Notes under the pieces: generated by a model
Database searches by the model: none
The model's input: only the letters and a program-made list of their open reading frames with translations
What the model was told of the DNA's origin: nothing
From: a virus
Reading direction: 5' to 3' (one strand)
Virus record (IMG/VR): IMGVR_UViG_3300048065_000495
Location: 1 to 22,818 of that record
Length of the DNA: 22,818 bases
Shown here: positions 2,795 to 10,700 of the stretch, in pieces
How the letters are laid out: the number at the start of each line of letters is the position of its first letter
Position numbering within the stretch: the first letter of the stretch is position 1
Program-made: the position numbers and the translations under genes

Positions 2795-3430
2795 ATGAAT
2801 AAATCAGAGAACCTAAACGAGCTGGCAACAGCTTTATGCAAAGCCCAAAATGAAATGGGAGGCGCTGTTAAAGACGCTAAGAATCCATTCTTTAAATCAT
2901 CTTACGCTGATCTCACTAGCGTAATCAAAGCTATTAAGGAGCCGTTCAACAAGAACGGTTTGTCCTATGTGCAATTACCTACCACTTCTGATGGTGGCAA
3001 AGGTATTGGCGTTAAGACAATCCTCATGCACACTTCTGGCCAGTTTATCGAGTCAGAGTTTTATTTACCTATAACCAAAGCTGATCCACAAGCAGGTGGC
3101 TCTGCAATAACTTACGCCAGGCGTTATGCGTTACAGGCTATGGCTGGTATACCTACTGCTGACGATGACGCAGAGGCGGCAATGATGCGGGGAAAGCCAG
3201 ATGAGCCTAGCGTAGAAGAGCTTTGCGCTATGGCTGTGGCACGAAATAAACAATCGGTTATGGCTGTCAAAGAATATCTTTCTGATCCTTCTGAAAATAA
3301 TATACAGTTTGCCAAAGAAGCATTTGGTGAGATTGAGGAAGAGGATCAAAGAGCTATGTGGCAAGCGCCTACTAAGGTTTCTACCGCACCATTTACGACT
3401 GAAGAGCGCAGATTATTAAAAGGAGTCTAG
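2795..3430 (+). CDS. erf: ERF-family single-strand annealing recombinase
   Basis: ERF proteins (P22 Erf family) anneal complementary single strands and promote recombination and genome circularisation. The 211-residue product has the family signatures NPFFKSSYADL (about residues 30-40) and a Gly-rich DPQAGGSAITYARRY block (about 97-111), followed by the acidic ADDDA stretch. The region after residue 130 is a variable helical tail. ATG 2795 follows GAGAGGAGG closely; an in-frame TTG at 2780 is less likely. The SSB-tail protein and NinG nearby make up the rest of a recombination set. The length is typical of the family. Confidence 0.9.
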   Translation: MNKSENLNELATALCKAQNEMGGAVKDAKNPFFKSSYADLTSVIKAIKEPFNKNGLSYVQLPTTSDGGKGIGVKTILMHTSGQFIESEFYLPITKADPQAGGSAITYARRYALQAMAGIPTADDDAEAAMMRGKPDEPSVEELCAMAVARNKQSVMAVKEYLSDPSENNIQFAKEAFGEIEEEDQRAMWQAPTKVSTAPFTTEERRLLKGV

Positions 3431-3431
3431 G

Positions 3432-3968
3432 GTGGACATTATTGTTATAGACAATTTCTTCCCAGACAAGATAGCACAATCTTTTTGTGATGTTATGGCT
3501 AAGCAAAAGTTTGAGTTTTATTGGCCTGGTGACAAGGCGGTTCCTAACTTTCATTGGCACATAAAAGATTGTCCTATGGCATTTGCTGTTCATACTCATA
3601 TGCCAGAAAAGCTTATTGGTAAGCTAAGATTGTGTGATTTCTATAGTAACTCGCATACGCATGGGGTTTATCCATCAAAACATTCTGACTTCCAAAGCGG
3701 AGCAGGGAAAACTTATACTGCTCTTTACTACCCAGAAATGGAGTGGAAAGAAGAATGGGGTGGTGGACTATATATATTTAACGATGATAAAGTACATAGG
3801 CTTATTGGCTACAAGGGCAATAGGCTTGTTTTTTTTGATGCTAGTTATGATCATCAAGCTGCTGGTATAATGCCTGCAGCAAATTATTTACGCATTTCCA
3901 ATGTCTTGAAGTATTCTTCTGATATTGGCGATGGGTTTGTACCGTTAGACTTTACTAAAATTAATTAA
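3432..3968 (+). CDS. 2OG-Fe(II) oxygenase (prolyl-4-hydroxylase-like)
   Basis: A non-haem iron dioxygenase of the double-stranded beta-helix fold that uses 2-oxoglutarate and oxygen to hydroxylate an unknown substrate (protein side chain or nucleic acid). Iron ligands are visible as H84-S-D86 (KHSDF) and the distal H141 (SYDHQ); R154 in LRIS is placed to bind 2-oxoglutarate. The strand EWGGGLYIF (about 108-116) is typical of the Tpa1/P4H-like group. The start is GTG 3432, with AAGGAG at 3420-3425 and a six-base gap. It lies between the ERF and SSB-like genes, two bases after the former. No helper enzyme that would identify the substrate is in view. Confidence 0.85.
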   Translation: MDIIVIDNFFPDKIAQSFCDVMAKQKFEFYWPGDKAVPNFHWHIKDCPMAFAVHTHMPEKLIGKLRLCDFYSNSHTHGVYPSKHSDFQSGAGKTYTALYYPEMEWKEEWGGGLYIFNDDKVHRLIGYKGNRLVFFDASYDHQAAGIMPAANYLRISNVLKYSSDIGDGFVPLDFTKIN

Positions 3969-3978
3969 GGAGAGGAAT

Positions 3979-4248
3979 ATGAGTAACTACGATAACACTA
4001 ATTCTGGTGCATTGTTTAAGAACGAAACCAAGCAAGGTAACCAGCCTGACTATCGAGGCCCACTAAATGTTGGTGGCAAGGACTTTGAAGTGTCTGCCTG
4101 GATTAAGAAGTCTCAAGCAGGTAAAAGTTTTATGAGTATGTCTATTCAAGAGAAGGATTCTTGGAAGAAGGATGCACCTAAAGCTGCTGAACCTAAAGTT
4201 GCTGAACCAGCAGGTGCTGATGACTTTGAAGACGACATTCCATTTTAA
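3979..4248 (+). CDS. Small ssDNA-binding-like protein with SSB-type acidic tail
   Basis: An 89-residue protein with a short beta-rich body (GPLNVGGKDFEVSAWIKKS, about residues 27-45, then a second basic stretch) and an Ala/Pro-rich linker. It ends DDFEDDIPF, the same kind of acidic tip that bacterial SSB uses to recruit partners (DDDIPF in E. coli). The body resembles small phage proteins of the DUF736/single-strand-binding kind. It lies in the recombination cluster downstream of ERF, with AAGGAGAGG before the ATG. ssDNA binding is inferred; the tail is directly visible. Its stop overlaps the next small gene as TAATG. Confidence 0.65.
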   Translation: MSNYDNTNSGALFKNETKQGNQPDYRGPLNVGGKDFEVSAWIKKSQAGKSFMSMSIQEKDSWKKDAPKAAEPKVAEPAGADDFEDDIPF

Positions 4249-7268: not shown

Positions 7269-7550
7269 ATGTACCCAATAGTTAGAGTAACTTGGAATGA
7301 CGCTCAAGAAGGTGAACAAGGCTGGTTAGACATCCAGGATTGCGTTAATACACCTATGGCTGTTTGTTATACAGTTGGTTGGCTTGTAGAAAACACCGAT
7401 GAAAAAATAACCATAATGACATCTGCGGCTAAGTGCCAGACTGAAAAAGAGATAACCCAAGGGGGTGGTTGTACTTCTATTCCTGCTGACTGGTGTACGC
7501 TGATAGAATACCTGGAACCCAAAACAACTAGACCTTTAGATAGTATGTAG
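7269..7550 (+). CDS. Conserved-looking hypothetical phage protein
   Basis: A 93-residue protein preceded by TAGGAGGG. It has the layout of a small phage family with a VTWxDA start, a Gly-Trp motif (VGWLVENTDEKITI) and a late Cys/Pro/Trp segment (TSIPADWCTLIEYL). Five Cys are present (residues 25, 33, 56, 68 and 76). I recall similar proteins among podovirus-like phages, but no function is known to me. It closes the tightly packed part of the early operon. Confidence 0.6.
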   Translation: MYPIVRVTWNDAQEGEQGWLDIQDCVNTPMAVCYTVGWLVENTDEKITIMTSAAKCQTEKEITQGGGCTSIPADWCTLIEYLEPKTTRPLDSM

Positions 7551-7574
7551 TCTATACTTAGGCAACATAGTTAA

Positions 7575-7640
7575 GTGAACATGCCAGTGGGTAGGCATTC
7601 CTCCAGAGCTGCACCGACCAGCTTCTCCCGCAGTCGGTAC
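7575..7640 (+). promoter_or_regulatory. Structured RNA leader with possible H-type pseudoknot
   Basis: The 95-base gap before the last plus gene is more G+C-rich than its surroundings and highly self-complementary. A hairpin ATGCC/GGCAT (7581-7585 with 7594-7598) is followed by AGCTG/CAGCT (7607-7611 with 7619-7623). The loop of the latter, ACCGAC (7613-7618), is complementary to GTCGGT (7633-7638). That gives an H-type pseudoknot with a 1-base loop over a 6-bp stem, no spacer, and a 9-base loop over a 5-bp stem. In addition GTGGG in the first hairpin loop (7587-7591) can pair with CCCGC (7627-7631). The element ends eight bases before ATG 7646, which lacks a visible ribosome site. A leader-RNA control element is inferred; no known riboswitch class was matched. 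Confidence 0.5.
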
Positions 7641-7645
7641 TTATT

Positions 7646-7786
7646 ATGGGTAAAGGATCAAAGCCAAGACCAATGGAAGTCAGTCGTAAGGAGTTCAAAG
7701 AGAACTACGATAAGATATTCCGTAAGAAAAAAGATTCACAACTTAAAAAAAATAAAAACACTATCCTTCCTAGACAAAAACCTTAG
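7646..7786 (+). CDS. Small basic phage protein
   Basis: A 46-residue, Lys/Arg-rich protein beginning MGKGSKPRPMEV and continuing with a KEFKENYDKIF helix. The start pattern is one I associate with tiny proteins found widely in phage genomes, function unknown. It lies directly after the structured RNA segment. No Shine-Dalgarno sequence is evident in front of the ATG. Its stop codon (7784-7786) overlaps the end of the large late gene on the opposite strand. A longer frame in another phase (7575-7802) runs through the RNA hairpins and is less credible. Confidence 0.6.
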   Translation: MGKGSKPRPMEVSRKEFKENYDKIFRKKKDSQLKKNKNTILPRQKP

Positions 7787-10700
7787 CCTTCAATCTTTTT
7801 AAGATCTTCTTCGGCAAGTTCTGTTTTGATTTCCATATACATTGCATCTAAAGCTTCGGCTGCTTTGGCATTTATTGCTGAATAAAGTGCTTCAGTTAAA
7901 GATTTCTTTTCATCTATCGTGTACTCTTTGCTGTAGTAAACGTAATCTATCATCTGCCTAAGTTTAGTTATATCTCTGTTAGTTGCTACAGCAATCTTGT
8001 AATCAAGAATCCCTCCAGCTTCATTAAACCTGTGCATGCTTTTTACAGCTCTCTCATTTTGACCTCTTTTTGCTTGTGTACGCATAGCTCTGTATTGTTC
8101 TTGCATTCCATTTAAAGCTTCATAAAACTCAGTTACAGATTTTGTGTTAGTTCTCCCTTCAGCAATAGTTTTGCCATCCCAAAAAGCAATTGAATCAGTT
8201 AATTGTTCTAATGGCTTATTAACTGGAGGAGAAAGGTCATCACTAACAGCGTAGTATGCTGTGTCTAATAACGCTAAAGCCGTTTCAGAAGCTCCGTTAA
8301 AAATTGAATTAACAAAATGTTCAATCCTTGGAGCAGAAGCGTAATCATCAAAAGGTGTACCTGCAAATCTATCAGTCATTGCGCTGATAAGAGGACTTCC
8401 TCCCTTTTTCTGTCTTTGGCTTGCAGGCATTGCTTCCATGCCCATTGTTTCTATAGGTGCGCCAGTAAAAAAGTCTTGATTAATTGCTTGCTCCCCTATT
8501 ACTTTTATAAATTGAGGAATTAAAGGAAGTGTACTAACAAGTCTGAGCATTGTCTCAAAAGTACCTGCCGCAAATTCTTTTTGGTCAGCGTTTGCTGTAT
8601 CGCCAGTCATTACTGCATAAGCAAATTCAACAGATTGTTCCGCTATGTTTGCAATCACACCAATTTCATATAGTTTTGGCAACCTAAATAATTTTACTTC
8701 TCCCGTAAGTGGGTCTCTGTAAAAAATATTTGAATAAGCTAATTTTTCCCAATCTTCTAGCTCGTCATACTCTTCTTTAAAATGTTTTAAGCTGTAGGCA
8801 ACTAAACCGCCAGAGAATAAAGCAAATGCACCAGCTTTGGCAGCTACGGCTCTTCTTTGACCTGGAGAGCTTTTTTCTGAAACTGATCTAAAACCCCAAT
8901 CAAGAGCTGTTAAACCAGCCTGTTGGAACATAACTGTAGAAGTGTAATTATTAAAACCTTCATTTGTCCCTCTCATAGCAAAATCGCCACCTATTTCTCT
9001 TCCTAAATAAGCGGCATATCTTGGACTGTCTCCTCTTTTCCTGGCTTTTTGAAACTCTGCAAATTTTGTCGCCATCTCTACGTTGTTAGCTAAGTTTTGC
9101 CACTCTAACAATAACTTTCTAGCGCTAGTTATTAATACAGCTTTATTACCTGTAGTGGTTATCCTTTGCGTTGCAAGGTCTAGCATGTCTTCGCTAGTAA
9201 AATAAGAAGAATACCCTCCACCATTAGCAATAAACGATTGATACTCAGGGCTGTTTGTTGCCACGTTATAAAACCCTTTTATAGAGTTTGCAAAAGGTAT
9301 TTGTCCTGTCTTACTGAAAATAGCGTTACCGATAGTTTCTCTATATATACTAGCAAGTAAGAATTTTGGCCCTAGAGTTATTGTTGTTTGCCCAATAACT
9401 TTAGGAAGAGAAAGCCACCTGACTAACGCGCTTTTTCTTGGGGGTGTAAACGATTGGAATGATTTGTAAAGCTGTTCATCTACAATTTCAACTTCGTATG
9501 GCTTACCTTTGTCCATGTATTGCACAATGTTCTTGCCCCCTTGTGAATGACCAAAGGTGTAGAACTGCATGTAATCAGGCATCATTGTAAGAGTGTCAAT
9601 CATTTCCTCAAGAACTTCTTCCCTTATATTGTCATCCATAATAGAATTATTCATAAGTTGTTTGACAATATTTTCAACTTCCGATCTAGGAATCTTTTCC
9701 ATTTTTGGAACTTTTCTTGCAGGCTCCATAAACATACCCATTGCCGAGCTTGCTTGTATTGCTTGGATAGTTGTTCTTTTTGCTTCATTGTGCAGAGCTT
9801 GAGTTAAAAGCATTGTTACTTGCGCTATAATATTCTCGCCTGCTGGCGCTAAGTTTTCTGAACTACCGTAAGCTCTTTGAACAGAATATGCTGCCTTGTC
9901 TAAGCTCACCCTTCTACTTCTGCCTTGTTTTGTTTTATTTGTTTCCACTGTAAGTGTAGGAACATATTTTTGCCTTTCCCATCTTCCTACTTGTTGTTCA
10001 CTAAGCAGTCCCATGTCAATGCCAAACTGTACGTTTTGGCTATTCCATTTTAGATAGTTTTCAAAAGCCTTTATCATTTGAGGATGATTTGCTTCAACAG
10101 TATTTATAACTGCTTGCATTTCTGGAATGTCAAACCTGTTTTGACGACCTTGCTCTTGCAGCTCTAAAGAAGTTTGTGCGTAAAGGTAATGATAGAAAAG
10201 TTGTAAATGATCGCCTTTTATGTCTGGATTATTCCTAGCTAACATTATTATCTCATCTACTAATTTAACACCTTCAAATGCAAATGAAGTAACTACTTTT
10301 CCGTTTTCTATAGTTTTCTTTACTACAGGAGCGCCATCTTGAAATGATTTGCCAACAAATGCAGATGCGTTTTTAACATTGCGAACTAAGTGATAAGGAT
10401 TTTCTTGGTCAAGAAAAGTCTCACCGCGCTCGTAAGCAGCTAAAACAAAGTTTTTGACACCCTGCATATCATCTATAGTTGCTTGTCTTAGCCTACTCCT
10501 GCGTGTTCCGCTAGTGTTTACTGATCCTTCATCACCAATCTTAGAAGCAAACCTTGTGGTGTAATCCTGGTTGTACCAGTCAATCATTCCTTTCTGTGCT
10601 TTTTTAATTGCCTTTCCATATGGAGAGCTTTTTAACCAGTTCTCATACCAGTTGTAAATGTTTGGAGCCATTTCTTTAGCAACTTCTGGCTGAGTCATAT

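Follow-up and report, generated by a model that had tools for sequence, protein, structure and literature searches.

A compact double-pseudoknot element in the early operon of uncultured phages as a probable new family of structured RNA

The window analyzed here is a 22,818-nucleotide stretch of viral DNA, positions 1 to 22,818 of IMG/VR record IMGVR_UViG_3300048065_000495. Among its genes are a phage SSB gene, a 93-residue gene and a 46-residue gene whose product carries the motif MGKGSKPRP. The last two flank a 58-nt element that, in the window sequence, can be folded into two interlocked H-type pseudoknots. The coordinates of the genes and of each part of the fold are given in Table 1.

Table 1. 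Genes and predicted RNA parts in the window.
Feature	Position	Strand	Basis or details
Phage SSB gene	3979..4248	+	PHROG 18154, E 5.3e-15
93-residue gene upstream of the RNA	7269..7550	+	PHROG 25889
Predicted interlocked double H-type pseudoknot RNA element	7581..7638	+	sequence, conservation, covariation, covariance model
P1 hairpin	7581..7598	+	ATGCC 7581-7585 with GGCAT 7594-7598; loop AGTGGGTA 7586-7593
PK1 5' strand GTGGG	7587..7591	+	partner is 7627-7631
Linker TCCTCCAG, predicted single-stranded, contains CCTCC	7599..7606	+	alignments
P2	7607..7623	+	AGCTG 7607-7611 with CAGCT 7619-7623; loop 1 is C 7612
PK2 5' strand ACCGAC	7613..7618	+	partner is 7633-7638
PK1 3' strand CCCGC	7627..7631	+	within loop 3 (7624-7632)
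PK2 3' strand GTCGGT	7633..7638	+	covariation
46-residue MGKGSKPRP gene, no Shine-Dalgarno	7646..7786	+	adjoins the RNA in group G1

Read along the strand, the parts of the fold come in the order P1, PK1, P1', linker CCUYY, P2, PK2, P2', PK1', PK2'. The first-pass annotation had proposed a single H-type pseudoknot at this site, formed by the stem AGCTG/CAGCT and by pairing of its loop ACCGAC with GTCGGT, and every one of these pairs is in place, with P2/PK2 loops of 1, 0 and 9 bases in the window sequence. It had also offered GTGGG/CCCGC as a side pairing of the hairpin at 7581-7598. Covariation keeps this pairing, which includes one U-G pair in the window, as a full member of the fold. By sequence and covariation, both P2/PK2 and P1/PK1 have the short loop 1 and the adjoining stems expected of H-type pseudoknots. 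Judged from the sequence data, the proposed pseudoknot is real and is part of a larger, two-pseudoknot structure.

Relatives of the element were found in about 50 IMG/VR contigs, which fall into eleven sequence groups (G1, G2, G3, G4a, G4b, G4c, G5, G6, G7, G8 and G9) with a common architecture and mostly different helix sequences. G1 comprises ten contigs close to the window with a matching leader, one of them cut by the contig end. A loose pattern applied to the collected loci yielded G2, in which the order and spacing of the parts are equal and the helix sequences are different. G3, G4a-c, G5 and the lower-scoring G7 were found by a four-helix descriptor run on relatives of the ERF recombinase, while G6 and G8 were recognized by gene position, on inspection of the equivalent gene gaps. 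Lastly, G9 was found with a covariance model that held base pairs for P1 and PK2 only, and its PK1 (CAGGGA/TCCCTG) and P2 (CGTAG/CTGCG) pair even though they were absent from the search model. The window, itself among the model-building sequences, scores 53.7 bits.

The element is conserved beyond its surroundings. Between the window and L015 its identity is 97% vs 65–79% for the neighboring genes. In L152, about 145 nt (vs 31 nt) separate the element from the upstream gene and mostly cannot be aligned, and the element is identical at 55 of 58 positions. Each of 13 clade records that were searched whole (13/13) contains one match, a count that refers to records whose genome completeness is not established. 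No credible copy was present in isolate phages whose ERF genes are related (Pseudoalteromonas, Vibrio and one uncultured record) or in more distant ERF phages (L205–L228); for the latter, the limit may be that of the model itself. In bacterial genomes, one narrow pattern gave no match and no ERF relatives were found. Scans of IMG/VR with a loop-and-linker pattern returned only further G1 and G2 members and chance matches. The exact 17-mer AGCTGCACCGACCAGCT was discarded as an IMG/VR probe, as 11 of its 13 matches were unrelated sequence.

The first-pass annotation had described a G+C-rich segment in an A+T-rich phage. Indeed, the element has a G+C content of 62% (whole window, 40%), and 0.13% of 58-nt windows are as G+C-rich. 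A nested-only folding program gives no signal for the element (z = -0.38) because pseudoknots cannot be represented there. Because the sequences were partly picked for complementarity, the shuffle control matters; G3, G4 and G5 came from a scan that requires complementarity, and their pairing is partly a selection effect. Across 18 sources (216 kb), the four-helix descriptor gave 12 matches at a score of 52 or more, all 12 with a CCTYY linker. Thirty dinucleotide shuffles of the same 18 sources gave 0.63 matches per set, or 0.000 when CCTYY was required, and no shuffled match with CCTYY reached a score of 50 or more.

Covariation of both stems among homologous regions was the check proposed in the first-pass annotation, and both pseudoknot pairings covary. 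In an alignment of 17 distinct sequences, the whole-structure covariation score was 0.552; shuffled sequences scored 0.261 and slid partners no more than 0.192. PK2 was paired in 100% of cells over these sequences, with two-sided changes at all six of its pairs, while the counts for PK1 and P2 are lowered because some rows of the alignment are out of register. We also permuted the 3' strands of ten group representatives, each parsed by its own structure, and the observed pairing was reached in 0 to 1 of 20,000 permutations for each helix. PK1 has 5–7 bp across the groups and two-sided changes, with variants such as TTGGGGA/TCCCCAA in G2 and GCTAAAC/GTTTAGC in G5 and one pair missing in G8; in L015 and L148, its 3' strand reads CCCAC, and the U-G pair becomes U-A. 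P2 is replaced in other groups by GGTAG/CTACC, GCCG/CGGT, CGTAG/CTGCG and others. One PK2 pair varies among the G1 contigs, being A-U, G-U or G-C. P1 covaries between groups, yet it is the weakest helix, with three of four pairs in G7 and two of four in G6. As sequence evidence, covariation of this strength supports the fold.

Within groups, departures from Watson-Crick pairing are mostly G-U when read on this strand. This bears on the suggestion that the element works at the DNA level, as a structured single strand in, for example, replication or recombination, and not as RNA. Recombination genes (ERF, SSB and NinG) do adjoin the element, but the G-U departures on one strand would be A-C on the other and its orientation always follows transcription, so that we regard a DNA role as extremely improbable.

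In the alignments, the linker CCTYY is the only strongly conserved unpaired sequence. It reads CCTCC in six groups, resembling the 16S anti-Shine-Dalgarno. Pairing of this CCTCC with the Shine-Dalgarno of a neighboring gene was considered and dropped, as it is not conserved. An out-of-frame ORF of 75 residues (7575-7802) overlaps the RNA and the small gene. Since its frame changes among close relatives, it is probably not coding, and coding was rejected as the source of the conservation. Because one-base indels freely shift the overlapping frame in these relatives, frameshifting is not indicated, in agreement with the first-pass annotation, which had called it unlikely.

In all groups, the RNA is on the transcribed strand of an early operon with ERF, SSB and NinG-type genes. 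Most groups have it starting no more than about 30 nt from the stop codon of the preceding gene, and in some that codon falls inside the P1 loop. What follows the RNA varies. Seven groups (G4a, G4b, G4c, G5, G6, G7 and G8) have SSB as the next gene; in G1 it is the MGKGSK gene and in G2 a DUF3310 gene. G3 and G9 have the RNA at the 3' end of the operon, where a convergent gene faces it and no operon gene comes after. Near-identical ERF genes can be found in different contexts, as L132 carries a G2 element and L192 a G7 element. In L192, L197, L200 and L183, the space between the RNA and SSB contains a common AAATTTGAGAGTTATTTTCCACCT stretch. In L112 and L113, imperfect repeats GGATCTTAAGGAGAGTGGAAGGAG...CGACTGACATCC occur from about position 3300 on, 3' of the homologue of the 93-residue gene.

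The frequency of SSB as the next gene (7 of 11 groups) raises the main rival reading, an autogenous translational operator of SSB like that of T4 gene 32. Free SSB would nucleate on the pseudoknot, spread over the A+U-rich stretch behind it and block the start; groups like that of the window would then have another gene placed under SSB control. The T4 gene 32 operator is also a pseudoknot, followed by UUAAA repeats, with a stringent structure and a relaxed sequence (PMC535899), and structure likewise outweighs sequence in the element. As with the T4/RB69 operator, the pseudoknot RNA is linked to a phage SSB and, in several groups, has an A+U-rich stretch and a start region behind it. The distance from RNA to SSB is about 20–90 nt, and in several groups a TTAATTAA-like stretch lies between them, which is weak evidence because the genome is A+T-rich. 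In contrast to the T4/RB69 operator, a single pseudoknot of about 28 nt, the element has two interlocked pseudoknots over about 58 nt and is also found before other genes and at operon ends. A pseudoknot precedes the SSB start in the seven groups, whereas the window's group, G2, G3 and G9 lack this arrangement, and in G3 and G9 there is no following gene to control. Additionally, no RNA lies upstream of the SSB gene in the window, L047, L172 or L173, and the sole model match in the L201 record is away from SSB. We consider an SSB operator unlikely, yet a serious rival.

The first-pass annotation had assigned the element to the 46-residue gene, as a leader that controls or enables its translation, and had noted an ATG at 7646 without a ribosome site. 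The ATG is present and a Shine-Dalgarno is absent. The RNA ends 7–8 bases before the ATG in all G1 members, and the Shine-Dalgarno-like sequence that is usual in the rest of the gene family is missing in G1: the complementary run is 3 nt in all nine G1 members tested and at least 4 nt in 39 of the 46 other members sampled. The MGKGSKPRP family is a widespread one among phage contigs, with 108 loci confirmed in IMG/VR (the best 80 were kept). However, it has no such RNA leader outside G1. In 10 of the 11 groups the RNA is not directly before the MGKGSK gene, and in G2 phages, which have the RNA as well as the gene, the two are about 335 nt apart and separated by other genes. As a general role, control of the 46-residue gene does not hold up, given that elsewhere the RNA class precedes SSB, DUF3310 or no gene, and we regard a cis-acting leader, whether it blocks the start or enables initiation without a Shine-Dalgarno, as improbable. 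A local effect on this gene may nevertheless exist in the window; a folded element 8 bases before an ATG without a Shine-Dalgarno should hold down its translation. The MGKGSKPRP protein has no Pfam match, and its family gave four weak tblastn matches to GenBank phage records (E 0.4–0.8).

Scans of two loci revealed no consistent promoter or terminator: a promoter-like site at 7529-7558 of the window is not above chance, and neither the window nor L172 has a terminator-like site close to the element. For a small RNA to be released, processing would therefore be required. The element might itself be a self-cleaving ribozyme, or a processing or stability element of the early transcript. Its compact double pseudoknot with free helices and its intergenic or 3'-terminal sites, regardless of the next gene, would fit such a role. 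Known ribozymes have more fixed unpaired nucleotides than this element, which has very few beyond CCTYY. As the window and 12 further loci also lack any match to the known self-cleaving ribozyme classes in Rfam, this role appears decidedly improbable.

At the gathering threshold, Rfam 15 gave no match of any kind in the window or the 12 further loci, and raising E to 10 added only one chance-level match. Like the element, the STAXI motif is an RNA with a pseudoknot found close to SSB and further DNA-handling genes; it occurs as two or three tandem copies, which often have UUCG loops (PMC2864571). The element differs from STAXI in its fold and in having one model match per record. The manA and wcaG motifs are structured RNAs found in phages, mostly from marine metagenomes (PMC2864571); they resemble the element as structured phage RNAs but are linked to metabolic genes and have other structures. 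The nearest described motifs are the T4 gene 32 operator and STAXI, and the element fits neither. A limited search of the open-access literature found no description of this fold in phages. On these comparisons, the element seems to represent a new family of structured RNAs.

We favor a role for this family that is independent of the next gene, because a role tied to one downstream gene misfits G3 and G9. A trans role, which the first-pass annotation had given as its second option, or a protein-bound RNA that serves the whole phage, is compatible with all contexts; in contrast, such a role does not predict SSB as the next gene in seven of eleven groups. We give roughly even odds (about 0.5) to a new compact family that acts independently of the next gene, either bound by protein or released. 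The family would be encoded in the rightward early operon of an uncultured, probably marine clade of tailed phages, with a fixed shape, free helix sequences and the CCUYY linker as its one conserved unpaired stretch and likely contact site. The folded RNA may be bound by a phage or host protein and serve the phage as a whole or, alternatively, may be a small RNA that is released from the operon's transcript. We infer its transcription, its folding in the cell, its binding or release, and its target. More tentatively, and at less than even odds, it may represent an undescribed phage RNA class with an exposed, anti-Shine-Dalgarno-like CCUYY linker, present in one copy per genome at changing gene places, that would have translation or a protein as its trans target. 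A single copy in changing gene contexts poses the question of which partner needs the RNA. Few structured RNAs of uncultured phages have been described, and scans for nested folds miss pseudoknots; the covariance model provides a handle for finding such RNAs in other phages.

Between ERF and SSB, the window also encodes a 2OG-Fe(II) oxygenase-like protein at 3432-3968 (Pfam PF13640, 2.6e-7). The name of its best PHROG, DNA endonuclease V, disagrees with this Pfam match.
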